From assembly GCA_030272155.1 (NCBI GenBank), contig CP126199.1:3770501-3834500 (forward strand): 64,000 nt of DNA. Direction: 5' to 3'. Under the pieces are notes generated by a model that was not told the origin of the DNA, ran no database searches, and saw only the letters and a program-made list of their open reading frames with translations. Both the position numbers and the translations under genes were made by a program. Numbering within the stretch: the stretch's first letter is position 1; the number at the start of each line of letters is the position of its first letter. Source of the stretch: Tetradesmus obliquus. Its lineage: Eukaryota; Chlorophyta; Chlorophyceae; Sphaeropleales; Scenedesmaceae. Shown piece after piece: positions 2,631 through 62,429 of the stretch.

Positions 2631-4030
2631 TTACTCCATGGCAAAGATCTGCTTGAACACCTGCCGCACCCTGTCACCGTTGTCAATGTCAGCCATGGGG
2701 TCCTTCCTCAGGCGGTGACGCAGGCACAGCGGGATGACCCTGCAGCACACACACAGCACACAATACAGCGTCAGTATCAGCAGCAGGAGCAGCCGAAGTA
2801 TGCCAAGCAATTTCTGAAAAGGCGCTGTCCCGCTAATATCGAAGCTGCTGCTTGACGCAGAACTGTCATGTGAACAACAGTGAAATCACTGCAGCACACC
2901 GCATCTAGCACACCTGTAGATGGCTTCTAACACCACAAGTATCGTGAAAACACGGAGATACAGCAACCATCAATTTAACTCCCGCAACTTTAATTATCAA
3001 CTTATGAAACCGCGCCCACCCTTAAATGTCCTCCACTGCCACCTCGTCCCTGCCCTCAAAGCTGGCCAGTGCCTTGCAGTACACACCATCTTAAACATCT
3101 GTGACTTTCTTCCCCCGCCACAAGTTTGACAAACACCGGACATACCGGCAACATATCATCGCAGCGTTCTGTGAAATCTCGCCCACCTGTAGATAATCTC
3201 CTCCATCACCAACTATCACAAACACCGGACATACAGCAACAACACGATAAAGCACATTTGCTAGCACGCCGCCCACCTGTAGATGTCCTCCACTGCCACC
3301 TCATCGCGTCCCTCAAAGCTGGCCAGTGCCTTGGCCGCCCTGTTGCTCACGATGTCGCCGCGGATGCCGTCCACGTTGAGCTCGGAGCAGATCGCACTGA
3401 TCTTCACTCGGAACTCATAGGGGATGGCCACCGTCTTGAGCCGCGTGCGCGCCTCCACGATGCGCTGCGTCAGGGCACCCTGTGGGGTGCACACACAACG
3501 ATGGCAGCACACCAGAGCGTGGGCTGGCATTCCAGACGACTAGCTGAGAGAGGAAGCGGCGCGCAGCAGTGTCGCTGCTGCTGCACGCGTAGCTTGCGAG
3601 GCCAGTGCTGGCAAATCGCAGTTTATTCAATGTATTGCTGCTGTCAGCGGCTGCAGACGCAGCCATCCCGTCCCACCTGCCTCTCTGCGTGCTCCTTGTG
3701 CAGCTCCACGCGGTACTGACCCAGCCGCTGTCACACACCAAACATGTGCATGCCCCCAACCCCAACGCGCCCGAGAGCACACAACTCCATATCCACATAC
3801 AAACCAGCAGATTAGGGACCCTGTCAATCACACCACAGCACGCCTCAAGCCCCCGGCCCACCTGCTTCTCTGCGTACTTCTTGTGGAACTCTGCAGGGTT
3901 CTCGTCGAATGTGCTGCGCTCGCTCACAATCTGCACGCGCAGCTCTGGGTCCTTCACTGTGCCGATCTGTGCGTGCATGCCGAAGCGGTCCAGCAGCTGA
4001 GGGCGCAGCTCACCCTCCTCGGGGTTGCCT

Positions 4031-4078
<48 letters not shown>

Positions 4079-7000
4079 AAAAGAGATGCTGAGCTTGAGA
4101 AGAGCAACACATGGCATGCGCTGGCGAGTATATGGCAGGGAGATGACGGCGGCACTAGGTCACCATACAGCGCGCACCTGCACTTCAGCGAAGGCCACCA
4201 GGCTTGCCCACTACTGCAGCTTACACAAGCAAAGCAAACAGACCGGCCACTAGCCCAGCTTGCAAGCAGCCTGAAAGAAGGCATACAACTCCCACCTGAG
4301 CCGACCAGGATGAAGCGAGCAGGGTGGGAGATGGAGATGCCCTCGCGCTCCACTGTGTTCCAGCCTGATGCGGCAGAGTCCAGCAGCACATCCACCAGGT
4401 GGTCGTCCAGCAGGTTGACCTCATCCACGTACAGGATGCCGCGGTTGGCCTTGGCCAGCAGCCCAGGCTCAAACGCCTTCACGCCTGCAGGCAGGGGGTT
4501 CATGCGCGGACAATTGTCGTTATATGCACGTGCAAGCACGTAACGCAGGCCGGCAGAGGGCTGATGGCAGCAGAAAATGCAGCAGGTTGGCCTGCAGTGA
4601 GACGCACTGGCTGGCACAAAGCTGGCACATGTGCGCTCAAAGCAAAGCACAGCTGTGACACAAACAGCTACTGCAACCTTCATCAGCTGCAAACTGCAAA
4701 CACATCGCCGCTGCTCACCCTCAGTCAGCGCCTTCTCGATGTCGATGGTGCCGCACACACTCAACAACATTTGCCACGCCAACTGCTTGCGCAACAACGA
4801 ACCAATCAGATCAGCTGCACGCTTGCTACTCACCCTCAGTCAGCGCCTTCTCGATGTCAATGGAGCCGCACACGCGGTCCTCCCTTGCGCCCAGTAAATT
4901 CCAACATATGAGCACACACGCATTGCCAGTCACAAACTGCCGTGCTGCTCACCCTCAGTCAGCGCCTTCTCAATGTCGATGGTGCCGCACACGCGGTCCT
5001 CAGCACCCACTCGATACACCAACACATTAGTATTGCTAATCACAAACAGCCACCCGCCTCACCCTCAGTCAGCGCCTTATCAATGTCGATGGTGCCGCAC
5101 ACGCGGTTCTCTATCGCGCCCAGTGAACACCAGCATATGAGCACACACGCATTGCCAGTCACAAACTGCCGCGCTGCTCACCCTCAGTCAGCGCCTCCTC
5201 AATGTCGATGGTGCCGCACACGCGGTCCTCAGTTGCGCTTGGTAATTACCAACATACAACCACACACGCATTGCCAGTTACAAACTGCCACCCGCCTCAC
5301 CCTCAGTCAGCGCCTTCTCGATGTCAATGGTGCCGCACACACGGTCCTCTGTGGCTCCCAGGGGCAGGTCCACCATGGGGATCTTCATGCTGCCCACGGG
5401 CAGCTCCTCGCCAGCCTTCAGCCGCTGGCGCACCTCCTCACTCATCAGCTCAGCATCAAAGGGGTCTGCGGGGCAGAATTCAAGTCAGTTTTAGTATGCT
5501 GCTATGCTTTGTTTGAGTGTGTGTGTGTGTGTGTCACTGCCACAGCTTCTGGGTAAGCCAGGCATCAGCTGCTGTTTCCCCTGCAGCCACTTCGAACCAA
5601 CAGCCTGCGCTGCATACACATAGTACAGCAGCACGGCCTATGACATCGCTATGCATGGTGATGCACCAACACCCTTGCCACAGACAGGCATGCTGTGCAC
5701 ACAATGCTGCACTACAGGCACCTCAGTTGATGGGGTCCTTGCCACCACATGCCTGCCAAAGTGCCACGTTGATTTGTTTCAGCTTCTATCTGGCATCTTC
5801 TGTCTGGGCAGGTGCAAGCCACGAATTCCAACCTAGACGCATGCACTGCACGAACAGGCAAGCCTCAATCACCTGAGTTGAAGGGGTCCTTTGCCACCAC
5901 TGGCACCTGTGGCAGCAGGTCAGCCAGTGCGCGGATGGTGGTGGTCTTGCCGGTGCCGCGGTCTCCCATGATCATGACACCTCCGATCTTGGGGTCGATC
6001 ACATTGAGGATGAGCGCGAGCTTCATCTCCTCCTGCCCAATAACGGCAGTGAAGGGGAAGATGGGGCGCGCCTGGCCTGCGGGGCGATCAGGGTGAGGCA
6101 ATTTCGCATGTTGAGTACGATGTGGGTGGATGTGTAAGAGAGTCAATTGGGCAAGGTTGTGATGTGTTAACGAGCAGCATAATGCGTGAAGGGGTTGATT
6201 GTGGGATGCAGCATGAGTGAGTTGCCTGAGAGGACATTGGAGCTGGCAGCAACTGGTGATTCATGCAGGCAAACATGTCTTGCTTGCTGACAGTATGTGG
6301 CGTCATGGCAGCGTCTGGATACAAGCAGCAGAAAGGCATGAATGCGGAAGGCTACAGCGGTGTGTGCATAATTTTGCACATGCAAGGAAACCACCATGTG
6401 CTAACAGCAGCATGCAGCGCCCACAACTGATTAAGCTGCAGGGATACGGCATTGCCAGCTGATGCCAGCTAAGCTCAAAGCTGCCCAAGCGCACAGCAGA
6501 TGGCTACTGCAGCGCTCACAATGCTTGCCAGCTTTCACTGTTGTCTGCTGTGGTGTGTGCTCCTGATGTGCTGCGGGTGCTGCTGTCCTGCTGCCACCTG
6601 CTGCATGCTGATTGCAGACAGTGTTCGCATGTCTGGGACGATGTATGGTATGCTGTATCTTGCACTTGCAGCATGAGCTGCTACGCTTCATGCTAGAAAG
6701 CAAGCTGCTGCTTGTTGAGTTTGCCTAGCACCGCCTTTCCGCTGCTTTGATGCCGCTGCAGTGCTGCTGTTGCTGCTGGTGCTGCCGATTGTTCATGTGT
6801 GCTTTGACACATGCACAGGCCAAGCTGCATGCCTGCTGAGGGCACATTGGTGATGCTGCATCCAATCCTGCTTCCAGGACCCCTAGCAGTAGCACACTCA
6901 CCCTCTGCTGCCTGCACTGCTGCTCCGTTCTCAGCCACAGCTGCCACTGCTTGCACTGCAGGTCGCCATCAGCACCAGGAGAACCGGGGGTTAGATCACT

Positions 7001-7216
7001 GCTAGATGAATTCACGTAATACATTCGTTTGTCGAAATCGATGTTTTCAAGCATATCGGGGAGCTTCTCACCACGCAGGTGCTTCCTGGAGAGAGGTGCG
7101 GCAGCCATTGCGTTGCGTGGGCAACGCATTGGTCCCAGCACAAGCCTCATGAAAGGCTTTGCTGCAGCATTCTTTGCTGTTGCAGCGCGAGCTGCACGCT
7201 GCTGTGCGAGTGCCAT
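2631..7216 (-). CDS. CHLI: magnesium chelatase subunit I
   Basis: AAA+ ATPase subunit of Mg-chelatase. With ChlD and ChlH it inserts Mg2+ into protoporphyrin IX in the plastid stroma, the first committed step to chlorophyll. Nine exons with consistent phases: 7216-7072, 6955-6902, 6076-5873, 5465-5301, 4484-4296, 4028-3862, 3727-3677, 3479-3277, 2739-2631; 428 residues. The N-terminus ([16 protein letters not shown]...) is an R/A-rich transit peptide, with a VQA/VAA site across the exon 1-2 junction. Visible motifs are Walker A GDRGTGKT in exon 3, Walker B region [13 protein letters not shown] in exon 5, the [17 protein letters not shown] block in exons 5-6, and a C-terminus ending VFKQIFAME. 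Exon 7 (51 nt) adds 17 residues relative to the Chlamydomonas protein as I recall it and looks like a duplicate of the end of exon 6. An ATG 33 nt upstream (7249) is in frame; 7216 was chosen because it best matches a transit peptide start. Confidence 0.97.
2995..3320 (-). repeat. copies of CHLI exon 8 end in intron 8
   Basis: The exon 8 end and its donor (3277 downward) recur at about 3187 as a short copy and at about 3009-3075 as a longer diverged copy of the block reading CTCAAAGCTGGCCAGTGCC on the plus strand. The intervening ACAAACACCGGACATAC segment is also repeated (about 3130 and 3222). Copies lie only on the intron side of the true junction. Confidence 0.75.
3677..3727 (-). other. 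duplicated cassette exon in CHLI
   Basis: This 51-nt phase-0 exon encodes [17 protein letters not shown]. Its last ten residues and following donor ([15 protein letters not shown]) mirror the end of exon 6 ([15 protein letters not shown]). Over 35 nt spanning the two junctions I count five differences. Both ends have acceptable splice sites, and both inclusion and skipping keep the frame. Skipping gives a 411-residue protein close to the usual family length. Confidence 0.75.
4705..5353 (-). repeat. tandem array of exon 4 end plus donor
   Basis: The 3' end of CHLI exon 4 with its donor (CTGACTGAGG|GTGAG, minus strand) is repeated five more times in intron 4. The last exon-like base of each unit is at 5301 (real), 5182, 5063, 4953, 4834 and 4719, so spacing is 119, 119, 110, 119 and 115 bp. 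About 50-60 nt of exon sequence is recognisable in each unit. Units differ by scattered substitutions, and all six keep the GT donor. Spacer sequence between units is also shared (ACACACGCATTGCCAGT type). Confidence 0.92.
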
Positions 7217-8151
7217 GCTGAATCGAACGTACTCAAATGTTCCGTTCAATCAGACGTGTGAAAAAGACGCAATTGAGGCTGGGCGTGGGGCCACAAGAGC
7301 ACATATCTCTGGAGGATCTCAGACCAGGCAGGAGTAACACACATGTAACACTTACGGGCTGAAAGACAGGTGCTCAGCCTGTCGTTGCATCAAGATTATC
7401 GTAAGCAGTACGCCGCAGAATTCTAGGAGTCTTCCAAGGGCATGTGACATGTTGCTGCTGCCTTAGGCGGCATGCTACCTTCCAGCACTGCTGCTGCCAT
7501 GCCAGGCTGTGTTGCCCAACACTGTCGTGCTGCTGCAGCATATGTGAGTGCAGTGCGCAAAGCCTCCTTGCGCAGAGCATATCAAAAATAATGTATCTCT
7601 TCGTTACAGCCACGGCAGTGCAGAGCACGTGGTTACAGTGCAAAATTTGCACTCCAGCCAGTGCACAGTGGTGCTCGCACTTTGTGCGCAAGCCTTGTCC
7701 CAACCACCAATCAACCAGCAGGCACGGGAATTTCACACTGTGGCTGCCAGTACCCAGGCTGCAGCCACACTCACAGAATTTGCAGCCATTTGATGCAGCA
7801 AAACATTGAACCCATTGACAAACTGCCTGCAGCCAACATCATCTGAAGCTACTACTGCAGCGACTGGATGGTGTTTGTTGAGCATAATTCATTCCCACAA
7901 GCCCACCCTGCCCAGCATACTGCGGATGGTCCAACAACTCACAGCTGAGAAGCGAAATTCGAAATTAACAGTGCACTACTGGGTTTGCAGTGCTTGGCAG
8001 TTGGTTGCAGAACTTGATTGTTCTGTATGCAGCCAGCAGGGACATCATCAAGCCAGTTGCTGGCGTTGCTATTCAAATGTAGGTGTGCATGGCTGGTTCA
8101 CCACTACAATGCTACGCCTGGCACGCTCTTGCAGGATCATTGAGTTTGTTC
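7217..8151. other. intergenic, CHLI 5' region
   Basis: This lies between the CHLI start and the stop of the next minus-strand gene. It should hold the 3' UTR of the Cys/Met-motif gene and the CHLI promoter. I see no clear TATA motif and no open frame with family resemblance. Confidence 0.4.
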
Positions 8152-8407
8152 TCAAACAAACAGCACAGTCGCCAGCACACACAGCACCAGCACAAAGGCC
8201 ACCTGTGCTGCTGCTGCCACCGACCCGCTCCTCGCTGCTGCAGCAGGGGCGGCAGCAGCAGTGGCATTGCCCGCTGCAGCTGACCGGCCATCCATTGCCA
8301 TTGGCTTGGGGGTTGCGCCGCCTGCTGCTGCCGGGTGTGTTGCGCATGCAAACAGGCTGGGGTCTGCTGTGCACATGGTGTCCCACTCCTTGCACTCAGG
8401 CATGTCT

Positions 8408-8449
<42 letters not shown>

Positions 8450-8638: not shown

Positions 8639-8669
<31 letters not shown>

Positions 8670-23318: not shown

Positions 23319-23350
<32 letters not shown>

Positions 23351-23959
23351 GCCAGGCCTTTGCGAAGCATCTTTGCCCCTTCCTGGAGGCCGTCACCAAC
23401 CACTCCTTCATCTTGCAACACAGCTCATGCTGATATCGCTGTTGCCACTGCTGCTGCTGCTGCTGCCGCTCAGGCTTTTGCCAAGGGCCTGGGTCCCTTC
23501 CTAGAGGCAGTGATGGAGCACGACTTCATCCATGCCACCAAGCTCACGCTGATGCTGGCTGCCATCACGGTGCCACTCAACACGCTGTTTGGCACAGTGG
23601 CTGCCATCCTTATCACGCGCAACGAGTTTCCGGGCAAGGTGCGGGCAGCAGTTGTTGCAATGCAGCGCTTGTGTTATGTTGCAGTTGCCTTATTGTGTGG
23701 GTGAGTGTTGGTTTTGGCATCTCGCCCAACGAGTTCCCCGGCAAGGTGCGGGCAGCAGTCATTGCAATGCAGCTGTTGTGTATGATGTTGCAGATGCTGC
23801 TGTTGTGTAGGTGATGGTCAGCTTCATGCTGCGGCTGCAAGCCGGTGTTGGGTATCACATGCAGCGAGATTCAGGGTGAGGTGCAGGGTACAGCTCTAGT
23901 TGCGCTGCTGCAGTTGTGTTGTCACCCTCCATGTCCGTCTGCAGCATAAGACATCCGCC

Positions 23960-23992: not shown

Positions 23993-26304
23993 CGTCAGGT
24001 GCTGCTGCTGTCGCTGCTGGACCTTCCCTTCAGCATCTCCCCCGTGGTGACGGGGCTCATGCTGATGCTGCTGTACGGCCGCGCCGGCTGGTTTGCCACA
24101 GCGCTGGCAGACGGAGGGCTCAAGGTGGTCTTCGCCTTCTCAGGTGGGCTGCGCTTGCTGCTGGTGTTACAAGTTTGTCATTTTGTTACTTTTGCGTGCT
24201 GCAGCGCAGCGAGCTGTGCATTGGGCGGTGTGAGGTCGGGCCGGGTGGCTGCATCGGCGGCCATATCGCGCTGCAAATGCCGCCATCACTGCTCCCTCCG
24301 CAGCGGCAGCCTTAAACGTATGTTTGACTGGGATGCGCTGCGCTGCAGACGTTGGTGGCTGTGCATGCAGTGCTGTCGTGTGGTGCATGAGCAAGCAGGT
24401 ATGCTGCCCCCGACGCTGTCTGTGATGCTGCCCTTCTTCACCGCGTATTTCTGCAGCAGCCTGCCCACTGCGTATGTCCAAACAGCAACACACAACTCGC
24501 AGTCACTATGTCATTATCATTGGTTGTCCTGTCTTGCCTTGTGCCGCAGGCATGCTGCTGGCCACGCTGTTTGTCACGCTGCCCTTCATCAACATATCAT
24601 TTGTGAATTTGTATGTTCAATCAGCAACACATAACACTGGTGCATTGTGCCGCATTGTGCCGCAGGCATGCTGCTGGCCACGCTGTTTGTCACGCTGCCC
24701 TTCATCGTGCGTGAGCTCATCCCCACGCTGGAGCAGATGGACCTGGCGCAGGAGGAGGCAGCACGCTCCCTGGGCGCCAACCCTCTGCAGGTGCGTGGAT
24801 ATGTGGGTGGGTGGGTGGGTGGGTCGCTGGGTGGGTGGTGGTGCCCTGTTAAGCTGCCATGCACAATGTTTGTGGTGCAAAAAAGCGGCGCGCTCGCTGG
24901 GCGCCAACCCGCTGCAGGTGCGTGGGCATGTTGGTGGCTGGGTGGGTGGTGGTTCGATGGCCAGGTGCCATTCAAAGTGTTTGTGGTGCAAACAAAGTAT
25001 TTGTGGTGCAAAAAAGCGGCGCAATTGCTCAGCGCAAACCCGCTGCAGGTGGGTGGCTGGGGTGGGCTGCTGCCATGGCCAGCTGCCTCGCAAAATGGTG
25101 TGTTTGGTGTATGATAGTTTTACGGCAGATGGACCTGGCGCAAGAAGAAGCAGCGCGCTCGCTGGGCGCCAACCAGCTGCAGGTGGGTGGGCGTGTGGGT
25201 GGGTGGGTGGGTGGTGGTGCCATTCTAAGCTGCCATGCAATTGTTTTGCGAAAAAGCGGTGCGCTCATTGGGCGCCAACCCGCTTCAGGTGGGTGGCTGG
25301 AGTGGGCTGCTGCCATGGCCAGCTGCCTCGCAGGTGTATTTGGTGTATGATAGTTGTACGGCAGATGGACCTGGCGCAAGAAGAAGCAGCACGCTCGCTG
25401 GGTGCCAACCCCCTGCAGGTGCTTGGGCATGTTGGTGGCTGGGTGGGTGGTGGTTCGATGGCCAGGTGCCATTCAAAGTGTTTGTGGTGCAGACAAGCGG
25501 TTCGCTTGCTCGCTGAAACCCGCTGCAGGTCGGTGGGTGTGGCAGCCGCTTGCCATGGCCAGATGTATTGCAAAAACAAAACCACTTTGTGTGCTTAGCT
25601 GCGGTTGCCGTGTGTCAGCCCAAATGCACTGCCAGCTGGCTGTTTTCCTGGACAGCCTTGCCGCAAGATTATTTGTGCAGCTCAGCAGTTGCGACATATG
25701 CTGGGCTTGGGTGGTCAGAGCTGGCATGGCGTCTCACACAACCGTCTGGTCACGTTTGTCACGTGCGCGGCTGTGGCTGCAGGTATTCTGGCATGTGACG
25801 CTGCCCAACATCCGCTGGGGGCTGCTGTATGGCGTCATCCTGACCAATGCACGCGCCATGGGCGAGTTCGGCGCAGTCAGCGTAATCTCAGGTGGGCTCA
25901 GCAAATTGATTCAATCTTCTTTACGTTGCCAAATAGTGAAACAGGCACATAGGTGCCCAAATGGCTACAGCTATGTAGATGTACAGGTGCGGCGCTGGTG
26001 GCAGTGGCAGCTGTGCTGTACAAATGGACTCAGGATCTCTGCGCTGCACAAAGGAAATGATTCACTGTCCACTCAGCGGCTCTTGGGTGCGAGCTTTACA
26101 TGTACACTGTGTTTATCTGGAAAGGGCGTGTCCTGCAAGCCGCTGGCGATTGAGCATTCTACAAACGGCTGTCGAAGTATGGGCGCTGCCTGTGACATGT
26201 GTGATTGCGTCCTGCGTGACACGCACAGTACATGTGACTGCGTGCTGCACTCACCGACACTGCTGCTGCATGTGACTGCGTGCTGCACTCACCAACACTG
26301 CTGC

Positions 26305-26373
<69 letters not shown>

Positions 26374-28317: not shown

Positions 28318-31118
28318 GCGGCCATTACTGGCGGAGTGCCGGCTGTGGAACTCCAGCTATGAACCTGGCAGGCATGACGCAGCACTCCTGCACACTGCCG
28401 TCAAGGCAATTGCAACATTGTTGCAGCAACTGCATTGGCAGCGTAACATAGTCAAGGATGCAGCCACCGAGCAAGGCAACCGGTTGAACAAGCAGCAGCA
28501 GCGGCAACAGCACAGCAGCAGCAGCAGCAGCTGGTTTGCAGTCTTTGATCTGCCCAACACACAGCTTGCAGCATGCCTGAGCTTGGTGGTGTGGATGGAT
28601 TGGTGCTGATGGCTCTGCAGTGACAACTGCTGCTCCACCTCCGCAGTGCTCTTTGCAGCAGCAGCAGCAAGTGCTAATACAATAACAGCAGCAGGCATCC
28701 GCTGCCGCCACTGTGGCCGTCTGGGCTGGCCGCAGCGCTGCTTCACCCACCAGCCACACAGCCACACCACTCGCGCTAATGTCTCTAACACGTTATGCCA
28801 CGTGCCTGCTGCCAGGTGCCTTTCAACCCGCGGCTGCGTGAGTCGCCGGCTCTGGATATTGTGGCACCGCTCAAGAAGGGCAGCGCTGGCTTTGTTGCGC
28901 CCAATGCCAAGGTCATTGGCAATGTGTCACTCGGCAGCCAGGTGTCCATCTGGTACGGCGCAGTGCTGCGAGGTGAGCAGTGTTTTGGAGCTGAGTGCCG
29001 CAAAGCACAGGGTGGCACATGAGTAGTGCACAGGGTGGCAGATGATCATGTGGCTGGTAGCGCAATGCTGCGAGGTGAGTTGTTTCTGGGGATTGCTGAT
29101 GTCAGGCTGTGTTACGAAACCAGGGTGGCACCTGATGACATGTGTGGTGTCCATCCAGTGTCCAGAGAGTCGTGTTGAGATGCATGGTGCATGTGCTGGT
29201 GTTGTTTGGCTGTACCCTGTTGCTCTGCAAGTTGCTGGTGTTATAAAGCACAGCTCGGTGGGTTGATCACAGGCGTTGCTCACCACGGAGATATCACTCT
29301 GCTGCACGCGACATCATTGCCATCACGAGATCACACAGCACAGCCCGGCGTTTGCTACTCACCATGGTGTTATTAACAACTCGTATTATTGTTGCGCACC
29401 GGGTGCAGGCGACATCAACGCCATCACTGTCGGCGACAAGACCAACATCCAGGACAACGTGGTGGTGCATGTGGCGCGCCACAGCCTCACCTCTGCACCG
29501 GCAGGCGGCCCCAAGCCCACCGTGATCGGCTCAGCAGTGACCATCGGCCACGGCGCAACGCTGCACGCATGCACCATCGGCGACGGCTGCCTGGTGCGTG
29601 CTTTACGTGTTGTGCTATATGCTGTTGATGTGCTTCTGCAGCTTGGTGTCTGGTGGTTGAGAGGCAATCCTGCACGGCCGGGCGTATGTGTTGTCGCACT
29701 GTCGCAGCATTAGGTGGAGCCACATGGCTGCGCAACAGCCGCATTCGCAACGCAACTGATCAGCGGCACGTGCTGTGGCTGCTGACTGGCACCCGCTAGT
29801 GTGCAGATGGGGCTTGTCAACTGTATATGGTTAGAACAAGTGTATATGGTCAGAACACATCACCCCCTAGTGTGCAGATGGGGCTTGTCAACTGTATATG
29901 GTCAGAACAAGTGTCTTTGCAGCTGAGCCAGAGCTCCTTGCACCTCACAGTCTTGTCGCTGTCTCCTTATCTATGCAGGTGGGCATGGGCGCGACGCTGC
30001 TGGATGGCGTGGTGCTGGAGCCAGGCAGCATTGTGGGAGCAGGCGCAGTGGTGCCGCCAGGTGAGGCCCGGCCAGAGATCCACCTTCTGCCAGTAGATCC
30101 ACCAGAGATCCACCTTCTGCCAGAGATCCACCTTCTGCCAGTGGAGGAGGACATGCATGTACCCAATTTATGTAGCCATGTCATGCACCCATGTCATGTC
30201 TCGTGTCGTGTCATGGCATAGCATGAGGTTTTGTTTTGCCAAGGATCCACCTGCTGCCTGTAGAGGACGACAGTCATGTGGTCATTCATGTCTGCAGTGG
30301 GACTGTGCTGTTGGCGTTGTGCAGCTTGCAGTTGCTGTGCGGCAGCTGGCGTGGTGGTGTGGCGCGTGGTGGTGACATGACACTGCGATCTGCCAGAGCT
30401 GTTGCTCCTGGACTCAGGTTTGCGCAAAGGCATTCGATGTAGCGGAAGTTGGTGCATGCTAGGACAGCAGCTGTGTGCACCAAACTTGCTGTGCAATGTG
30501 AATTGGACAGCGAGCTTGATGCAGACAGCTGCTGCCCATCGAGAATTCACAAGCAGCGGCCAAGTCATGCTGCACGCTACAGCTGCAATACCAACCGGCA
30601 ACCTCTTTCTAACCTGCGTGTTTGTACTTTCCAACCTGCCTGTTGCGTCCGTGTGCTGCGCGCTGCCGCAGACGCTGCCGTGAAGAGCGGCGAGGTCTGG
30701 GTGGGGTACCCTATACTGTGCCACACATCAGGCATGAGTCTCATTGACCTCATTGTTGCCCTTTTCTCTTTTCGCTGACTGATATCGCTGTGCTGCTTGC
30801 CGCCTGCCCCTGCTGCTGCCACAGGCGCTGTCGTGAAGAGCGGCGAGATCTGGGCTGGCGCTCCCGCCAAGCTGCTGCGCAAGCTGTCAGCGGAGGAGAA
30901 GGGCTTCGTGGCGGCCTCAGCAGACAACTACGCCAAGCTGGCCACAGAGCACAGGTGCGACGGCTGCATGTCTTGACGTTGGTGTTATAGATAGGGTGAC
31001 ATGTGTGGCCTTGGGCAGCAGTAGGGGCTCGTAGCAGTGTGCAGGGGTCTTCCACAGCCCAGCACTGGAGCTGCTGTCACTGGCATGCTGCTGTTTCCGC
31101 TGCTGCCGCCGCCGCCGC

Positions 31119-31153: not shown

Positions 31154-31452
31154 TAGGATTGAAAATGAACAGCTGTTTGAGGAGGTGTACCTTGACTGAC
31201 CATATTCCCAAATCATTTCCAATTTCTCTCGCCTCATGTCATGTTCTTATTAATTCATTTCATTCCTTCTGCTGCTGCTGCTGCTGCCGCTGCCACCGCT
31301 GCAGGATTGAGAACGGCAAGCTGTTTGAGGAGGTGTTCCTGGACGCGGCCATTGCGGAGGAGCGCGAGTGGCGCTCCCTCACCGACATCGACCTGCACAT
31401 GGGCATTGCACGCGACGACCAGACGCAGCTGGTGCTGGCCACACGCGGCTAG
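27534..31452 (+). CDS. gamma-type carbonic anhydrase
   Basis: Left-handed beta-helix protein of the gamma-CA family, known in plants and green algae as part of mitochondrial complex I. Exons: 27617-27804, 28816-28972, 29409-29593, 29979-30060, 30825-30954, 31305-31452. Hexapeptide-repeat blocks are clear: GFVAPNAKVIGNVSLGSQVS, IWYGAVLRGDINAITVGDKT, NIQDNVVVHVARH, VIGSAVTIGHGATLHACTIG, VGMGATLLDGVVLEPGSIVG and SGEIWAGAPAKLLRKLSAEE. Zinc-site histidines are visible as VVHVARH and TIGHGATLHAC. The N-terminus (MYALGGMMRGLGTALDSIGV) matches the amphipathic start of plant gamma-CAs. No in-frame ATG begins the first exon. If spliced from a GTAAGA donor at 27534/27535, the ATG is split as A|TG (27534 plus 27617-27618). 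An internal ATG at 27679 is the alternative. The exon 1 donor (27804, GTATAT) is the weakest join. Confidence 0.92.
29792..29915 (+). repeat. 71-bp direct repeat in carbonic anhydrase intron
   Basis: CTAGTGTGCAGATGGGGCTT followed by GTCAACTGTATATGG occurs at 29796 and again at 29867, with a shorter TGTATATGGT(C/T)AGAACA sub-repeat between them. It lies just before exon 5 and does not copy exon sequence. Confidence 0.8.
30063..30150 (+). repeat. short tandem repeat after exon 5
   Basis: AGAGATCCACCTTCTGCC occurs three times between 30073 and 30140, with a shortened AGATCCACC copy between them. A diverged copy (AAGGATCCACCTGCTGCC) lies at about 30241. Confidence 0.8.
30660..30720 (+). repeat. 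copy of exon 6 start (carbonic anhydrase)
   Basis: CGCAGACGCTGCCGTGAAGAGCGGCGAGGTCTGGG mirrors the real exon 6 start ACAGGCGCTGTCGTGAAGAGCGGCGAGATCTGGG at 30821. The AG is preserved and similarity stops after about 40 nt. The copy is upstream of the real exon. Confidence 0.85.
31150..31200 (+). repeat. copy of exon 7 start (carbonic anhydrase)
   Basis: After a CTG tract and CATAG, GATTGAAAATGAACAGCTGT then TTGAGGAGGTGTACCTTGAC mirrors the real exon 7 start at 31305. The acceptor AG is preserved. The copy soon reaches an in-frame stop. Confidence 0.85.
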
Positions 31453-33711: not shown

Positions 33712-36700
33712 ATGGCACTCACAGCCAAGGCCCCAGCAGCCTGCACTGCAAGGTCCGTGAAGGTTGGCAGCAGGACCGCTACCGTCATGCGTGTTGCTGC
33801 AGTGGAGAAGGTAGGATTACAGCTGGAATCGAGGCTGGGTGGAAGATATGGAGGTCACCCAGCTTTGATCACTACTGTCCATACTTGCAGCTCGCTCCTC
33901 ACGCATTGCTTCTGAAATTACACGATTCTTTGCGATACAATCATTACACAGCCACATCTTGTTCCATGATAGCTTTGGGGCACCCACACCTAGCAGCAGT
34001 AGCTGGTGACGTGCGCCCACAGTTTTGTGTCGGACCCGCAAGCATCTTTCACCGAGGACGTACAGTATACCTTGTCGCATCACAGATGTATTCCAGCCTG
34101 CTGCGTAGCATGCCAGGTCCGTATGCACCTTGCACCAGCTTTATATGTTGCTGCTACAGGGGCAGTAAGCATTGCATAAGCTTCACTCCAGCAGCTGGGC
34201 TTCAGGGGTGCCTCCACTCTCACACCTGCTGTGCCTCCTGCTGCTACTCTGCTGCTGGCCTGCTGCTGTCTGACCGTGCAGCCCACCAACTGGACTGAGA
34301 ACTACATCAAGGAGGTGCCAGTCAGCCTGCTGCGCCCTGGCGTGGACACTGAGAACACGTGAGGGCCTGCTGCTGCTGCTGCTAGCCCTGCTGCTGCTTC
34401 TGTGTACATTTAGTTCCTTAATGGCACCTGCTTCTTTGAGGCTGGATTGGTTACTGCGCGCTCAGCTATGTCGCTATGCACGCAGTTGTTCTGTGCAGTG
34501 AACCGATGGAACAGCGCGCACACCGAATGCTTGCATGCCTGCTCACGACAGAAACATTCACCTCCAGCTGTACATTGAGTCAAAGCATGCATGCAGTTGA
34601 AGCCGTACAACACACTAGTCTCCTTTACGCCCCCTCTTCAAAACTGTCACCCAACCCTCATCCTGCCGTCGTTCATCTGCCACACTCAATGCGTTGTCCG
34701 CGCAGCATCCGCGTCAAGTTTGAGAAGGTCATCCGCGATGCTCAGGACTCCATCTGCGCCGCCATCAGCGAGATCGACGGCAAGCCCTTCCACCAAGATG
34801 CATGGACCCGGGAGGATGGAGGCGGCGGCATCACACGCGTGCTGGCTGACGGCAACGTGTGGGAGAAGGCGGGAGTGAACGTGTCTGTGGTGTATGGCAG
34901 CATGCCGCCTGAGGCATACAGGTGAGCCTGTCGCTGCTGCTGCTGTATGTCGTGGCATGGAAGTGTCTGTGGGGTATGGCAGCATGCCGCCTGAGGCCTA
35001 CAGGAGAGCCTGTCGCTGCTGCTGCTGCATGTTGCGGTGTCCCTGCAGACCATCTTGCTGTGTCTTTGAGTTTGCTTGCATTCTGTGCATCATCACTGCT
35101 GTGTTGCGCAATGCTTTGGGCAGCCTGCACGCAGATGTTTGCATGCTTGCTGGCATGCATGCCAGCGCCATGTTGTGCAGTGCGCTCATGCCTGCTTACT
35201 GCAACGTCTGCCGTACCTCGTACGCCCTGTGATGGTTCGTGGACAGCACAAACCACATGGTTCCTTGCTGACCCTGACTGTCTGCTGCCGTGCTGCTTGA
35301 AACACTTGGCATGCTGCAGGGCTGCTACCGGCACTGCTCCCGCAGACCTGGAGAAGGCCAAGGCTGCTGGCGGCCGCGTGCCCTTCTTCGCTGCAGGCAT
35401 CAGCAGCGTCATGCACCCGCGCAACCCCCACTGCCCAACCATGCACTTCAACTACAGGTAAGACTCGCAACCAGCTGATGCCATGCCTGCCTGTCCCAAA
35501 GCTGTCTTTGACTCTGCAGCAGTTGTTGATTTTGGCAATGGCTGTGAACCAGTGCTGTCAGAGACAGGGAGTACTTGCAGCGCTGGTTGCTGAGCCGTGC
35601 ATGCACAGCAGGGTTGTCCCAGAGCCTTTTGAAATCAAACTGCCTCCGCCGTGCAGCACAACTCATCATTGTCTGTGTGAAACTCGCTGTTCCATCCCCG
35701 CAGGTTCTTCCAGACAGAGGACTGGAACGGCATCCCTGGCCAGTGGTGGTTTGGCGGCGGCACTGACATCACCCCCTGCTATGTTGTTGAGGAGGACCTG
35801 AAGCACTTTCACGGCACCTACAAGGCAGTGTGCGACAGGCACGACCCCGCATACTTCCCCAAGTTCAAGAAGTGGTGCGACGAGTACTTCCTGATCGGGC
35901 ACCGCAAGGAGACGCGCGGCCTGGGCGGCATCTTCTTCGACGACCTGAACGACAGGTGGGTTTGAACTTGAAATCATAACATATGCAACACGTGCCAGTG
36001 GAGAAGCTTCGCGTCCTGTGGCATGTGCTGTTCATGGGAAGGTTGAAGCAGGCACAGAGCAGGTGATCTGCAGTCGTCAGGATGTACTTGCAAAAACTAG
36101 CGCGCTGTTGCTGCAGACTTGTACCATTGCTCACTACCCTGTGTCTCTCGCCGCTGCTGCCCTGTGACGCTGCTCCGATCTGTATCTTTGAATTATTCTC
36201 GCTGCAGGCCCGCCGAGGAGATCCTGGCCTTCAGCAAGGACGCAGTCAACCACGTGGTGGAGGCGTACTGCCCCATCGTCAAGAAGCACATGAACGACAG
36301 CTTCACTGAGGAGCAGAAGCAGTGGCAGCAGATCAGGCGCGGCAGGTGCGTGTGTTGACATCTGTGGGGTGATTGCCGCCTTTGCAGTGTGACGCATGCT
36401 GTATCAGGGCGTTGTTCTGTTGGACCCGTGTGTGAAGGTAGCAAATGCTGTGCTGTCGCTGGTTCTGCAGCAGCTGATGAATCGTGGGTGGATCACGTGC
36501 TCTGCCCGTGGGAAGTTCTTAGTGTCTGCTCACTGCGCTGCTCTCAACATCAACCCACATCAGTGCTTGCCGCTTGTCTGAATTTAACTTTCCACTCCAC
36601 ACAGGTACGTGGAGTTCAACCTCGTGTATGACCGCGGCACCACCTTTGGCCTCAAGACCGGCGGCCGCATTGAGTCCATCCTCATGAGCATGCCGCTGAC

Positions 36701-50040: not shown

Positions 50041-51067
50041 TCAAGCCGGCCTCCACACGCCCCTGTTGGCCTTGGCCACCTCGGCCTGTGCCTTGCTGCT
50101 GTCCACGATGGCCTTGATGGCGTCGTACAGCAGCGCAGCGGGCCGGCTGATGAGCTGCGGCCGCAGCATCAGCACGCCCACCAGCACCACCTGCAGCCAG
50201 GCACAGCAGCACAGCCACAGCAAGTGTCACAAACTGTCAATTGCTGATGTGGCGGCAGATTACTTGCAAGCATTTACACACTCGTAGCTGCTTCCTTTTG
50301 CATAGTTAAGCGCCCGCATCGCATGCAAAAGCTTTTGGCTGAAATGACGTAGCGCGCCCGCTGTCACCTTGAGCACAACGTCCAGGAAGGCTGCCCGCAT
50401 CGCAGGCACAAGCTGTCTGCAAAAAAAAACAACATAACATAGCGTGCCGGGTGCCATGTCACCTTGAGCATGACGTCCAGGAAGGGTGCCTGCAGGATGA
50501 AGAAGATGGCTGCAGTGTTGATGGCCATGATGAGCATGTTCTTGCCGATGGGCTTGGGCTTGGCGTAGCTGACCAGGAACTCCTCAAAGCTGATCAGGCC
50601 GTCATCGTCTGCAGGCATGACACAGCATGAACACGTCATCAGCTGCGACATCCTGCATTGCTCATAGCTGATCAGGCCGTCGTCCACCGTGGCAGCAGTA
50701 GCAGTCACGATGCAGCATGAAGAAGAAGCAAGGTAGCAGCAGCAGCAGTAGTAGCACGACATCAGCTGCTGCATGACCAGGAACTCCTCAAAGCTGATGA
50801 GGCCGTCATCGTCTGCAAGCATGACGCGGCAGGGATGTATGGACAAACTGTGGTGTCAGGTGCGACATTAGGCAGCCGTTGGGCATGCAAGTACCAAGGC
50901 AGCAGAAACTGGCTTCTTTATGATGATATGTGAAGCACGAGGCCGTGATGATGCACATTCTGCGCTCACCTGCGTCTGCATCCTCGATCTTGTCCTCATA
51001 CACGTACGCCTCAATGCCCTGTGCAGCCTTGTACATGCTGAGCGCCACCTTGCCTGCAGTTGACGGC

Positions 51068-51100: not shown

Positions 51101-53143
51101 GCGGCATGAGTGATCACTGTTACATCAACAGCCATTGCTCCAATGCTCAGCATACAGGCAGTTGCAGTACACTCCCCCAAATACTGAAGGGAATTGGCAA
51201 ACCAAAGCAAGCATCGGCTGGTCACCTGCAAGACAACAAAAACTAGTGCTCCTCGACTGCTGCGCGGTAAGCGCAATGCGACGCATCCGCACTCACCGTC
51301 GTTTTCAAAGTCCAGCAGCCCGAACACCTACTTGCCCGCAGCCAGCTCGGTTTTGACAGTTGCAGCCGACTGTGCAGCATCCCAGGCACCCACACTCACG
51401 TGACACAACACACAGATGCATTACCAGTGTACAGACATGGCAAGCACACTCACCCCGTACTATGTTGCACGGAGGCTGCTGGCTAAAGCAGACACTGCTG
51501 GCGCTGCAGATAAAAACAAAAGAGCTCTGGAGCCCTGAGCGCCCAGCCGTCCCCCGGCATCATACACTTGCACCCACCGTCATTGTCAAAGTCCAGCAGG
51601 CCAAACACCCACTTGGCCGCAGCCAGCTCCGTCTTGTTGAGGCTCATCTGCGCCTGCAGCCGCGCCGCCTCATCCGGCCGCATCATGCTGCCCGTGTAAG
51701 CAGCACTGGTGGACACCGCGTGCACCTGGCAGGCAGAGAGTGGCGACATTCGACAATAGCACGGAGCATGCAGCAGCAGCAGCAGCAGCAGCAGCGATGT
51801 TTTGGTGTGCAAAAGGTAGGAAGCGCTGGCTTAAGCTGTGCCCACTGTGCCGCAGCCGCAACGGCTCATGATCACAGCATCCGTGGATCTTCCATGCATT
51901 GGGGTGGCAGAGGCACCAACACTGTCAGCAAAAGGCACAAAAACAAGCACAGGGGGCGGAGCCTACACCTGCCCCACATTTTGGAAGATGCTATGCATGG
52001 AAGATGCTATGCATGGCACAAAGCAAGCACATGACATGCACGCATCATCACGTGCTGTGCTGTTGCTGTGTTTCTGATAATCAAGCAAGTCTTCCCACAT
52101 ACAGCACTGCTGGTCACCTGTGATCGGATGATGCGCACAAACTGCTCCCTGCTGCAGCCAGTCTGTGCAAGGCTTGCCCAGCTGCTGGTGACACCCGCCA
52201 GCACCTCAGACAGCCCAGGTGACCAGGACACCTGGCGGCGGCACAACACAACACACATCATGTCGGCGCACGAGGCAGGCTTGCCCAGCTGTTAGTGACA
52301 CCCACCAGCACCTCAGACCTGGTGACCAAGACACCTGGCGATACACGCCAGCACCACACAAGGCAAACCATGTCAGCGCACGAGGCACATGTTCAGCAGC
52401 AGCAACCAGGCAAGCAGTGAACAAGGCAAATCAGGGGTTACAAACTGCCTACTGCAGAACTTAAGTGCGACAAGCTGGTGTCCGAGGCCTGCTGAACACA
52501 CGCAAAAGTATGTAGCAGCACAGGCGGTGTCACATGTGTTCACTCCTGATGTGGCTCCATGCAGTCTCAGTCTGCAGCTGCAACACAACCATGCAAAAGC
52601 GCTGCAAGCTGCCAACACCACACTTGCAGTAGCAGCGCAGTCAAACCAGCGAGGCAAGTCGTAACTGCATGTTATTACTGCCACCAACGCGCGGCTGACG
52701 CGACCATCTATACACACAGCACATGCCCCCATGCATCATTCCGCAACTGCACAGATTGTGTCTCAGAGCCCTGCCCTAGCTTGACTATCAAGCTGCTTCA
52801 GGCGCCTTATCCCTGCGCGACAGTGTGCATGGTGCATGCCATCAAACATGTGTAGGTGCATGTGTGCAGCCCACGCGCAGCTGTCCGTGGTGCTGAATCC
52901 ACCACTCCACGCCACACCCGCACCTTGCGCGTGCACCAGGTGAAGAACTGTCCCAGCTGCTCGCCTGACAGGCGGCCGCTGCTGCTGCTGTCCCAGTGGT
53001 CAAACATAAGCAGCGCCTGGTAGCGCAGCCGGTCAATGGGCTCAGTGCTGGTCAACACTGACAGGCTGTCAATGCTGCTGCTGGCTGCGGCAGCTGCTGC
53101 AGCTCCGTCTGCTGCTGCTGCTGCTGTTGCTGCTGCAGGGTCC

Positions 53144-57072: not shown

Positions 57073-57107
<35 letters not shown>

Positions 57108-57664: not shown

Positions 57665-57695
<31 letters not shown>

Positions 57696-57800
57696 CCATG
57701 CTGCTCAATGTTGGGCAGGGCCAGCAGCTGCAGCAGCTCATTGCAGCACAGGCAGCAGCAGCACGTGGCTTCCAACTTCAACAACAGCTCAATGCACTGC

Positions 57801-57840
<40 letters not shown>

Positions 57841-58779
57841 ACAGCCGTTGCAGGCTGCATCACCTCAGCAGCAGATGCAAGCACAGGTTGCTGCTGCATA
57901 CTCGTGGCTCCAGAAGATGGGCGGTGCTTCTGCTGCTGCTGCTAGCGGTGGTACTGCTAGTGCACATGCGCCTCTGCTGCTGCAGGCAGCGGCATTGCAG
58001 CAGCGGCAGCAGCAGCAGCTATGGCTTGCGGGTGGTGCGTGTGGGCTGGCACGCAGGGCAGCCGGCAGCAGCAGCAGCAGCTGGCCGGCGCTGCTGCAGG
58101 CTGCTGAGCAGCGGCAGCATGATGAGGAGGAGGATCTGGTGATGGATGAAGCCTCTGAGCTTGAGGCAGTTGCAGGTCGGTGCTGCGCTGCTCGCACTGT
58201 TTGAGGCAGAATCTGGATGTCTACGCGTGATTGCTGGCTCATTGTGTGGTTGTGTTTGCTGGCTGCTTACCTGCCCTGCGCCGTGATCTGTTGCTGCTAC
58301 CATACCACGACCCCATGATGTAATCACCTGATCTCTGTTGCATGTTATGTTATGTGTCATGTGCAGGCTTGATGGAGCTGGCACAGCCCAATGCAGAAGA
58401 CGGCAGCGCAGCTGCAGCAGCACCACTGGCAGCAGCTACAGCAGCAGCAGCAACAGCAACAGCAGCTGCAGCGGCACCTCTCTCAGCTGTGGCAGCAGCA
58501 ACAGCAGCTGCGGCAGTACCACTGGCAGCGGTGGCAGCAGCACCAGCAGCAACTGCAGCTGTACCAGCAGCACCAGCAGCTGCAGCTGCACCAGCAGCAC
58601 CAGCAGCAACTGCAGCTGTACCAGCGGCACCAGCAGCAGCTGCAGCTGCACCAGCAGCACCAACAACACCAGCAGCAACTGCAGCCGCAACAGCTCTAGC
58701 AGCGCAACCCAGCACCATCACCCTGCAAGCCACCCTGCAGGAGGTGGCACACCTCTCAGGCCTGTGCAGCAGCTGCTGA
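55064..58779 (+). CDS. glutamine/alanine-rich protein, about 1170 residues
   Basis: Two exons, 55064-58175 and 58367-58779, joined in phase through a 191-nt GT-AG intron. Start choices are ATG 55064 or 55073 (MQRMATTIQTAGGSQQSAVL). Frame choice rests on continuity: one frame stays open for 3.1 kb, and the splice restores it into an acidic stretch (DEEEDLVMDEASELEAVAGL, MELAQPNAED). Ordered islands between Q/A runs include APWLQHYPRLQALQQQSQTA, APAVIWTRKQPQTLQVRGVT (with VTVRTLQ), STAIDAIRKRLQQQVP, VQQWILNTKNGMILLQQPQ and AAAYSWLQKMGG. The C-terminal exon encodes an Ala/Pro-rich repeat and ends TITLQATLQEVAHLSGLCSS. I recognise no domain. Composition resembles Q-rich transcriptional coactivators, but that is not evidence of function. 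Confidence 0.72.
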
Positions 58780-60050
58780 GCAGCAGCAGCAGCAGTGTGG
58801 CAAGGCGCACGCATGTGAGCCTGGCTGCCTTGCCACCGGCGCAGTTAACGTTCCCTGCGATGAATGAAGCTTTGTGACTACAGCATTGTACATGTGTGTG
58901 TGTGTGTGTGTGGGTGGGTGTGTGGGTGTTCTGTTGCTGGGTGTTGGATCGTTTATGACTGGAGAGCGTTGACTGGCAGTTGGTGTTGCAGCAGGGTTGC
59001 TGGGGTGTTACCGTAGCATGGGCTTGGTGTTTTGCAGCAGGTGTGCTTGGTTGCAGAATGGGCATGGCCGTATGCAAAGCTTGCATTGTGTACTCCTCCT
59101 GTGTTGGAATTGTGTGATTTGGTGTCAGCTGGTTTGTAATCCTAGGGTTGATTGCTGCGTCAGCAGTTGCGCAGCGCCTGGCATACCAGTGCTGTGGGCG
59201 GAGTGTGTACAACAGCAGAGTTTCATCTGTCATCCTCTGTTTGCAGCAAGGCATTGTGCAGTTGTGTTGGCGTACAACAGTGTGGGTTCTATTACTGCAA
59301 CAAGCAGGCGACGTTCCCAGTGGCAAGCAATCAGTGCACTGAAGTAGGTTTATATATGTGTTTCCAGATGTTCTGGCTGTTGTGACCAATGTGGGTGCTG
59401 CATCGATGCACCAAGATTGGCGGTGCAGTATTGTTGGTGGCACGTTTGACCCACACTTTATGATGGCCCTGAGTGTGGTGCCATAGTGTTTTGGTACGCT
59501 GTCAAACATGCCTGTTTATCGACAGAAGTTTTGGCATGCCAGCCTGAGCAAACTTGGCACGACGGCTGCTGGCAACGGCCAGTGCAGGGCAGAATTTGAT
59601 GGAACACGGTGTTGTACACACGGCACCTGCATTCGGTGGTTGTACTTCACCGCCTTGACTTAGATGCAGTTAGCGCCTACGGCTGGCTTGACTGCCGTCA
59701 ATGTAACTGTGCCCGAGGTGGGTTCAGTCCCATACTTTGGTATTGGTATTGGTACTGGTAACGCTAGCAGCGTGCTGCACTACTCTCAAGACTGCAGCCT
59801 CTGTCGGGTTACACCACAAGGCATAGCTCAAGTCTGTTTTGTGCTTGCCTATGTCAACCAATCTGCCAGTTGACTGGCATTGTTGCCAGCACAGCAGGCT
59901 CAATGGGCAACCGCTTGATGCATCAATCAGCATGTGTCATGTTACCAAATAAGCCAAGCCGTACTTGAAGCAAACCAGTGTCAGAAGAGCAGTAATACTT
60001 TCATCTGACACTTCAGTCGGATCAGACATCAGCTATAGCATAGCTGTGTG
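58780..60050. other. convergent 3' region
   Basis: T/G-rich 3' UTR of the Q-rich gene, including a (TG)n run at about 58892-58912, then the 3' region of the minus-strand gene. No open frame of note. Confidence 0.45.
59135..59139 (+). terminator. TGTAA poly(A)-type signal
   Basis: TGTAA about 360 nt after the Q-rich gene stop; a second lies near 59703. Confidence 0.4.
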
Positions 60051-62429
60051 TCACTCCTGCCGGTCCTCGTGGCCCCACAGCTTGATCAGCAGTGCCACAA
60101 TGTAACACATGTCAAACAGGAACAGCCCGCCCACCATCGGCAGCACAATCTGCCAACAGTCGTCATTCTGCCAGCCGAACAGCAGCTTGGGCACAAAAAA
60201 TGCACTCGCAATGGCCAAGCCCAGCTTGTTGAGTGTGTCCTGGCGCTCCTCGGGTAACGCCGCAGGGTACTCGTACACGGCGTCCTCACGGATCAGTAGC
60301 TGCACAAATGCGTTGTACAGCGGCCACGCCTGCGGCGGCGGCAGCAGCAGCAGCAGCAGTCCTATGAGCAGCGGCTTGAGCGGCAGTTAGGCGGCAGCAG
60401 AGTCCGCTCACAGCTAGAGATGCAGCAGAGAGCATTCCAAGCACACCAACCATCGGACATTACTGCAGGCGACACCAGCGTCGCCAGTGCCAATAATAAC
60501 ACAGCGTCACCAGCATCATAGGCATGTCACTTGTGTCACTAGTGTCACCACTGGCTCACCAGTGTCACTGCATGCCTCGCCAGTGCTAAGTCTTTATGCC
60601 CAGCCGCAGGAAGTAGCCCCGTGCAGGGCAGACCGCCACGCGGAAGGCGTCACCCGCATCATGTGCATGCCACTAGTGTCACGGCTGACTCACCCGTGTC
60701 ACCGCGTGACTCACCAGGGTCTCAATCTTGATGCCCAGCCGCAGGAAGTAGCCCAGTGCAGGGCACCCTACCGCCCGAAAGGCGTCACCCGCATTATGTG
60801 CATGTCACTAGCGTCACCAGAAGTACCAGCGTCACCAGAAGTACCAGCGTCACCGCGTGACTCACCAGGGTCTTGATCCTTGATGCCCAGCCGCAGGAAG
60901 TAGCCGAGTGCCAGGCCGCCCACCGCCCTGAAGGCGTCACCCGCATAATGTGCATGTCACCAGCGTCACCGCCGACTCGCCAGCGTCACCGCGTGACTCA
61001 CCAGGGTCTCAATCTTGATGCCCAGCCACAGGAAGTAGCCCAGTGCAGGGCACCCCACCGCCCTGAAGGCGTCACCCGCATCATGTGCACGTCACTAGTG
61101 TCACCGCTGACTCACCCATGTCACCGCGTGACTCACCAGGGTCTCAATCTTGATGCCCAGCCGCAGGAAGTAGCCCAGTGCCAGGCCGCCCACCGCCCTG
61201 AAGGCGTCACCCGCATCCAGCCCCAGCCCCAGCTCACTGCCATAGAACACGAGCGCTGCGGAGCCCAGCTGCAGGCCCAGCGCCAGCTTGAACATGTCCA
61301 GGAAGAAGGCATATGGGTCGTCGCTGATGCCCATCATCTGCAAATGCATCATGGCCAGGGTGAGAGTGTGTTGAGTATGTGAGATGAGGCTGCAGGGCAA
61401 CCGCCAGCTTGAACATGTCCAGGAAGAAGGCATACGGGTCGTCGCTGATGCCCATCATCTGCGGAAATACAGAGCTAACAGTGTTTCGAGTTGTGTGGGA
61501 TCCCAGTGCGACAAGTGCTTACATCAGCTGTAGGCGCCGTGATCTGAACGCAGTGACTTGTCTGCGAGCTTTGCAGAAAAAAAACAGGGCGATGGCAGGA
61601 AGCAATAGAGTGGATTGCTGCGAGTTTCACATTTGCACCTGCTTGGTTGCTGGCTTACAGCAGACTGTGTCCCGCCAGCAGCAGACCTGACACTGTACGC
61701 TATACAGCTCGCAGCCATGCATCATAGTGTAGGTACTGCAATCTCACCAGTTCTCGCTGGCCAGCACACACACCTGCAAGATGGGGCCCAGCTGCTGCTC
61801 TGCGATGTCCCTGAACACCTTGTCGGTCTGGATGTCAGACACGTTCCAGCTGTCAATCATGGCGGCCTGCAGGCAAGCGGCAGCCCATGCACACCGTTCA
61901 GCCGCATATGGCAAATGAACATCATCTGCTGCACCTGGCTTCACCACTGCACATGCATGCATGCTGCACGGGCGACATTCCCCGCTGACAGTACAAGCTG
62001 CAAATTGCCAGCCGGCTGTGCGCAGGACGACTCCTCTACCCATGTGGAGTGCCTTGCCAGCTTACCACATCGAATCTCCGCCAGCTGACCACAAGTCCTG
62101 CCGACGTTCTTGCTGCTGCATTCACCGTTCACGCAGCTGCTGCTGCTGCTGTTGCTGCCGAGTTCAAGCACCAAGCAGCATCCACAACCTGCTGCCAGGC
62201 CATGCATGCAGCTGCTGCAATAACAGCAGTGCCACACGCAACACTTCGTCCTGCTGCTCATTGTCCCGCGCACCTGCTCGGGTGACATCTCTTTCTTCAG
62301 GTCCCTCTTCAGCTCCTGCCACGTCTTGTCCAGCAGCTTGTCGACAACAGCATCCACATCAACATCACCTTCAGCAGCACCCGAGCTGGAGACGGGCTGC
62401 TGCTGCTGCTGCTGCTGCTGCTCTGAGCC

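Follow-up and report, generated by a model that had tools for sequence, protein, structure and literature searches.

Why would introns of unrelated genes hold repeated copies of the exon edges that flank them, splice site included? The question is raised by a 64,000-nucleotide (nt) stretch of the genome of the green alga Tetradesmus obliquus (C9:3770501-3834500, in a genome of 104.66 Mb in 17 contigs; hereafter the window), in which a preliminary description had reported such copies as recurrent across genes. The observation is confirmed: all six genes named there (CHLI, SULP, a gamma-carbonic anhydrase, CPOX, an EF-hand gene and the so-called 60-kb gene) bear intron copies of their own exon edges with the splice site. 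The same description knew of no standard account of such structures, which nonetheless match the "mirages" described in amphioxus (PMC3087553, PMC3902484). On balance, the copies are probably mirage-type junction repeats, namely duplications spanning the exon/intron junction whose exon part is refreshed by recombination.

Frequency of exon-edge copies

Arrays in the window were detected by self-comparison, Tandem Repeats Finder (TRF) and direct reading. To measure their frequency, junctions were predicted in the window and in ten 20-kb sample regions at spaced positions by a purpose-written hidden Markov model (HMM), seeded with hand-read exons of CHLI, SULP and the 60-kb gene and self-trained on the same sequences; some of the junctions are approximate. 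Each of the 362 predicted junctions was tested for a copy of its own exon edge within 900 nt, with foreign exon edges as control. Before curation, 26 of 184 donors had an own-edge copy, compared with matches for 12 of 793 foreign edges; for acceptors the figures were 19 of 178 and 2 of 819. The enrichment is in line with the preliminary description. In the one region in which reverse-complement matches were sought, none occurred in 17,758 windows.

Of the 45 positive junctions, curation removed eight that were of low complexity, out of register or doubtful (window 23998, 61104 and 50056; R13 11498; R15 13883; R9 18565; R27 10476; R23 2868) and added one by hand (window 61136). The curated set comprises 38 junctions with 62 copies, and both of the types proposed earlier are represented, with 21 donor and 17 acceptor junctions; two of them, R27 17348 and 17444, on closer reading resembled copies rather than real exon ends. 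Over 366 strong junctions, the curated rate is 14/70 in the window and 23/296 in the sample (7.8%; 1.1-18.9% on bootstrapping over regions). Regions differ greatly: positive junctions occur in five of the ten sample regions, 14 of the 23 lie in a single region, and 9/265 remain when region R27 is left out.

Local repeat pairs group into 14 clusters in the window, and nine of the ten sample regions together contain another 29; in many of these clusters one member lies across a predicted junction. Across 152 introns between strong exons, the share of 30-nt windows with a local direct copy is about 0.11 at donors (last 30 exon nt) and 0.09-0.10 at acceptors (first 30 exon nt), is mostly 0.03-0.06 inside introns (range 0.007-0.098) and is 0.01-0.05 more than 45 nt deep in exons.

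Anatomy of the copies

The exon part of the repeated unit measures 27-134 nt in 37 of the 38 loci, and 300 nt at one doubtful junction. Among 37 loci, it extends as far as the opposite exon end at just two, the doubtful R27 junctions (1.4 expected by chance). Copies lie at lags from 82 nt upward, with a median of 207 nt over all copies and of 135 nt for the nearest one, and the lags show no multiple-of-three bias (25, 18 and 19 for remainders 0, 1 and 2). Fifteen of 37 loci are classed as fully tandem. At a single junction up to six (CHLI) or five (SULP) versions coexist, and the units of R19 are nearly identical (98-100%).

Over the 62 copies, ungapped identity to the real edge is 0.84-0.92 along 30 nt on the exon side, while on the intron side it drops from 0.92 (nt 1-3) to 0.56 (nt 7-9) and 0.44 (nt 13-15). 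The similarity between exon and copy thus often stops at the end of the splice consensus, and in most collapsed donors its intron-side end falls at 3-8 nt. The exon parts carry 246 substitutions and 15 insertions or deletions (indels) in 2,548 aligned sites, compared with 85 indels per 249 substitutions on the intron side, a paucity of exon-part indels that is partly an effect of the ungapped search. As had been noted, the copies also differ from each other: between copies, identity is 0.88 in the exon part and 0.71 in the intron part, and the exon part is the more similar one in 40 of 44 pairs, which represent 11 loci.

Most copies keep an intact GT or AG (56/62), as first described; in the window, no GT/AG stands in register at CPOX 35003, EF-hand 50686, and 60866 (one-base shift) and 60580 of the 60-kb gene. 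Splice-site scores average 4.63 for donor copies versus 6.34 for real donors, and 3.54 for acceptor copies versus 5.32 for real acceptors, and 31 of 37 donor copies outscore the lowest tenth of strong donors. In-frame stops occur in 3 of 59 copies, and one R9 copy has an inserted base.

Which junction is used

The preliminary description placed the functional junction at the outermost exon-side unit, and homologous proteins agree wherever the comparison was made. Specifically, the CHLI homologs P0002, P0003, P0004, P0009 and P0014 join TEG/VKAF (the slash marks the junction here and below) without an insert; P0003, whose name marks it as transcript-derived, carries a different insert, at an intron farther upstream. 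The annotated OEZ86 protein of FBPase and its aligned homologs have no inserts at the copied junctions. Pfam domains run unbroken through the SULP, COX15, TruB and CPOX proteins built with the exon-proximal junctions, a continuity that shows consistency only, as these proteins were assembled with the copies left out. Conversely, OEZ86_001867, the best match of the CHLI protein of the window, is annotated with an in-frame copy as coding sequence, which five aligned homologs lack. At several junctions, the exon-proximal site is therefore supported by protein homology as the one probably in use. Copies would persist only if splicing removes them, and the outermost exon-side unit would then have to stay the working junction; the polarity of the arrays may thus follow from selection, with no need for a splice-anchored process.

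Origin of the copies

In the proposed mechanism, a local direct duplication across an exon/intron boundary would repeat the exon edge, the splice site and the adjoining intron sequence inside the intron. The copies would be tolerated since the spliceosome, as homology suggests for several junctions, stays with the exon-proximal site, so that the copies leave with the intron. Arrays may then grow and shrink as minisatellites do, while short-tract recombination, by gene conversion or unequal exchange, would keep the exon part of many copies near the coding exon, the partner being the exon on either haplotype of the diploid alga, its own or the diverged second one. The intron part of the unit, with no constrained partner, would diverge. 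Exon refreshing coupled with intron divergence would account for similarity that often ends at the splice consensus and for exon differences that lean towards synonymous changes.

Diploidy and divergence between the haplotypes are reported for the strain. Extensive heterozygosity, one wholly homozygous chromosome and a possible hybridisation are described for diploid T. obliquus (PMC12636532), two alleles are described in UTEX 3031 (PMC12899622), and UTEX 3031 is reported to be a subclone of DOE0152z, with a related Scenedesmus called likely diploid (PMC7955037). Strain DOE0152z has 208 Mb versus about 109 Mb for UTEX 393 (PMC5552973), and the genome is called gapless and phased diploid in the title of Biondi et al. 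2024, as cited in PMC12636532 and PMC12899622. The genome studied here is presumably one haplotype and OEZ86 the other, in which case the CHLI copy in OEZ86_001867 would belong to the protein of the other haplotype, and C13 (L027, L028), which equals an OEZ86 contig in length, is consistent with the homozygous chromosome reported for the diploid.

The first alternative to be weighed is plain junction-spanning tandem duplication, that is, minisatellites that overlap exon edges and decay neutrally with no refreshing by the exon. It explains the polarity, why donor and acceptor types both occur, the arrays whose period is near 100-250 and the loci that are fully tandem (15/37); moreover, with median units of about 135 nt and median introns of about 235 nt, simple arithmetic suggests that about 70% of tolerated duplications would cross a junction anyway. 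Under this model the exon and intron parts of a copy have the same age, and divergence between intron pairs is about twofold higher. Neutral tandem duplication was simulated on these terms, conditioned on the observed exon divergence. Intron similarity is lost within 10 nt of the junction at 11 of the 38 loci, whereas the simulations gave a mean of 0.5 and a maximum of 2 (60 runs, age factor 1); within 25 nt, 20 loci were observed against a simulated mean of 1.6 and a maximum of 4. The maxima for the 10-nt class were 2, 6 and 9 at age factors 1, 1.5 and 2 (60 runs each) and 5, 10 and 6 with higher indel rates (25 runs each). Because all six settings stay below the observed number of sharp-ended loci, the plain neutral model fails unless its rates are stretched further. 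The scarcity of exon-part indels (15 per 246 substitutions versus 85 per 249, in part a search effect) and the overall synonymous excess also speak against it, while the synonymous share without R27 comes close to what neutrality predicts. Plain duplication is thus a rather unlikely explanation, and a process beyond ordinary minisatellite decay seems to be at work. The interpretation in the preliminary description, growth anchored at splice sites rather than ordinary minisatellites, is partly supported: the sharp ends exceed neutral simulation, but they fit recombinational refreshing at least as well as copying from splice sites, and the polarity would be explained by selection.

The synonymous excess itself was counted in 59 of the 62 copies, the other three being too short. 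Of the differences between exon and copy, 180 are synonymous and 131 are not, where neutrality would give 86 synonymous ones, and the synonymous count is 171 when R27 17348 and 17444 are subtracted. Among best copies, the synonymous share is 0.60-0.62, compared with 0.41-0.44 for neutral copies facing a synonymously evolving exon. Several copies in FBPase, TruB and SULP differ almost wholly at synonymous sites (7:0, 4:0, 14:3, 6:0); others in these genes do not (6:3, 2:3), nor do some elsewhere (0:5, 3:8, 1:8).

A second alternative is copying anchored at splice sites, by R-loop repair or template switching at splicing complexes, which would copy the exon edge with about 6 nt of adjoining intron and insert it at a distance of 100-250 nt inside the intron. 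The ends of most collapsed donors, 3-8 nt into the intron, are as it predicts, and some very similar copies lack significant flank homology (R11 1479, 98%, p 0.16; EF-hand 50608, 97%, p 0.12). Against it, flank homology is detected at R27 13506 and at the EF-hand edge 51578 (p 0.004), many loci are ordinary tandem units, and the process would require opposite fixed ends for donor and acceptor copies; furthermore, the limit of similarity coincides with the end of constrained sequence, so that constraint explains a splice-site ending equally well. Overall, intron flanks have detectable homology in 26 of 41 pairs, a figure inflated by array flanks that include other copies, and in 8 of the 16 pairs with a direct intron match of at most 10 nt, so that roughly half of the loci with sharp ends look as if they were once full units. 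Splice-anchored copying is accordingly doubtful, and recombinational refreshing of the exon part fits the data at least as well.

A functional role of the copies, for instance as competing sites that tune splicing and are selected for it, appears improbable. The synonymous bias, the donor scores (31/37 above the lowest tenth of strong donors) and the retention of GT/AG in 56 of 62 copies, against about 50 expected by arithmetic from a per-site identity near 0.90, are in its favour, while some frames are broken (stops in 3/59, the inserted base of R9), the lags ignore multiples of three and, by eye, CHLI and its paralog seem not to have their copies at the same junctions. Lastly, an assembly artefact joining alternative haplotypes end to end, which the high heterozygosity of the strain might invite, is very hard to credit given more than two versions per junction (six in CHLI, five in SULP), a copy in an annotated protein of another assembly (OEZ86_001867), a genome described as gapless and phased in its cited title, and no frame-breaking exon-internal repeat noticed among the repeat clusters, although the gene finder could hide one.

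Several observations weigh against refreshing by recombination as well. The synonymous excess comes largely from R27 (best copies 67:25), the rest (54:52) being near the neutral 0.41-0.44, and copy-to-copy differences are less biased (75:116, with 53.6 synonymous expected). A model with two haplotype classes was rejected, the synonymous share being alike in collapsed (0.60) and fully tandem loci (0.62). A four-gamete test for exchange among copies gave weak signals (P 0.017, 0.056 and 0.129 at three of seven arrays, 1.0 at the other four). Copies were detected through their exon part with an ungapped search, which itself favours high exon identity, and polarising real against copy lineages would require the DNA of relatives. 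In addition, the SULP copy of the edge at 24666 is identical over 41 exon nt while its intron flank is barely alignable (p 0.013), which makes plain exchange between haplotypes hard to fit.

A bolder extension, tentative and rather unlikely, is that coding exons keep serving as templates from which the intron copies of their edges are overwritten or seeded anew, with exons of the diverged second haplotype included. The introns of a hybrid-like diploid would then hold serial snapshots of allelic exon edges, and mirages would be a signature of extreme heterozygosity common to amphioxus and the alga. Amphioxus is highly polymorphic.

Relation to known systems

In amphioxus, mirages are described in Adh3, the globins BflGb6 and BflGb9, TnC and PGBD5, and those of BflGb6 differ in copy number between haplotypes and undergo concerted evolution (PMC3087553, PMC3902484). 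The algal copies share with them the tandem direct duplication across the exon-intron boundary, the involvement of 5' as well as 3' boundaries (21 donors and 17 acceptors among 38) and the many units that keep AG/GT (56/62 in the alga). Amphioxus mirages leave splicing undisturbed, and in the alga homologous and annotated proteins and Pfam domains are consistent with the same, although one annotated protein includes a copy. Unlike in amphioxus, many unrelated algal genes are affected at a measured rate, the synonymous bias is measured, and the similarity is often confined to the exon part and the splice consensus.

Intron gain by duplication of an AG/GT proto-splice site, as outlined in PMC2891723, likewise relies on local duplication with splice signals; there, exon duplication creates a new intron, whereas in the alga a pre-existing intron fills with copies. 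It was rejected as an explanation, as the algal copies sit in introns whose real junctions agree with homologs (CHLI, FBPase), and no AGGT was noticed at those variable copy ends that were read by eye. The human internal tandem repeats treated in PMC2812944 are also minisatellite units at exon-intron boundaries, with units of 30 bp on average, located in segmental duplications and altering exon/intron structure. Ordinary intronic minisatellites resemble the algal arrays in periods (near 115-135 in the alga) and unequal array sizes, and differ from them in that the algal copies are enriched at exon edges with similarity that is often exon-limited. Introners and a paralogous source were rejected too: introners would be expected to leave related sequence dispersed over the genome, and two copies searched against their own genome matched their own locus only, in a search that scores just the best candidates. 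No earlier report of mirage-type repeats in algae was met in a literature search of limited coverage, which leaves their absence unproven.

A curiosity of a few lancelet genes is found in a distant lineage, where it can be counted: it affects about one in five junctions of the window and, within wide limits, about one in 13 of the sample. This makes it testable why the spliceosome skips close competitors, how introns lengthen and whether exons homogenise intronic copies, and offers a new place to study the origin of the copies and a possible disturbance of splicing. It is also a warning to annotators, given the copy annotated as coding in OEZ86_001867.

Arrays of the window

In CHLI (minus strand), the real donor edge at 5301..5361 reads CTGACTGAGG/GTGAG, the intron starting from 5300, and homologous proteins join here without an insert; the donor-type array at 4709..5300 holds five anchored copies with junctions at 5181, 5062, 4952, 4833 and 4718. 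The donor edge at 3277..3333 (GACATCTACAG/GTGGGCG) is copied at 3020..3076 (88% over 57 nt), and that at 3862..3891 (GAGAAGCAG/GTGGGC), where homologous proteins are continuous, at 3677..3706. The donor at 5873 has a weak match only (19/25). A CHLI paralog, picked by homology (L029:1945-5179, in C1:9964001-9971000), has copies at about five junctions by eye, apparently other than those of the window gene, the two being unaligned.

In SULP (plus strand), the real donor edge at 24733..24790 (AACCCTCTGCAG/GTGCGTGG) precedes a donor-type array at 24791..25575 with copy junctions at 24917, 25182, 25288 and 25418, and the product, when assembled with the copies omitted, has an unbroken match to PF00528. 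The real acceptor edge at 24666..24706 (TGCCGCAG/GCATGCTG) has an acceptor-type copy at 24550..24590, identical over 41 nt, and the donor edge at 23612..23638 (GGCAAG/GTGCGG) is copied at 23719..23745. A diverged array upstream of an exon, at 23332..23553, is read as acceptor-type from TRF only (period 118, 76%) and lies outside the curated set.

Both copied edges of the gamma-carbonic anhydrase (plus strand), whose product has hexapeptide domains, are acceptors, at 30825..30854 and 31305..31344, with acceptor-type copies at 30672..30701 and 31157..31196, respectively. The donor edge of CPOX at 34881..34921 (plus strand; ATACAG/GTGAGC), through which PF01218 runs in one stretch, is copied at 34963..35003 with GT changed to GA. 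In the EF-hand gene (minus strand), the donor edges at 50463..50514 and 51578..51636 are copied at 50368..50419 (end approximate) and 51297..51355, and the acceptor edge at 50570..50608 has an acceptor-type copy at 50774..50812 (38/39 identical). The 60-kb gene (minus strand), whose product has no Pfam match, has a real donor edge at 61137..61217 (GAGACCCTG/GTGAGTC; junction set by hand) with a donor-type array at 60504..61136 (copy junctions near 61001, 60866, 60714 and 60580), and a real acceptor edge at 61268..61337 (TTTGCAG/ATGATGGG) with an acceptor-type copy at 61389..61458 (94% over 70 nt).

Other repeats were met in passing. Some acceptors are immediately preceded by long CTG/CAG tracts (CTGCTGCTGCAG/), for example at 4031-4075 and 26298-26373 of the window, and such tracts distorted the self-trained acceptor matrix of the gene finder. 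Elsewhere in the genome, an array at L020:8690-10000 (C5:3310001-3320000), with copies shifted by about 99 bases, lies outside predicted genes, and a local array of 98% identical copies at L010:8546-9859 (C1:1010001-1020000), with a shift of 118 bases, lies at the edge of a predicted gene. Between 38672 and 48000, the window holds two related stretches in tandem, about 5.8 kb from one another and rich in CAG/CTG tracts; they are read as genes on the minus strand, and one of them has a zf-MYND match.

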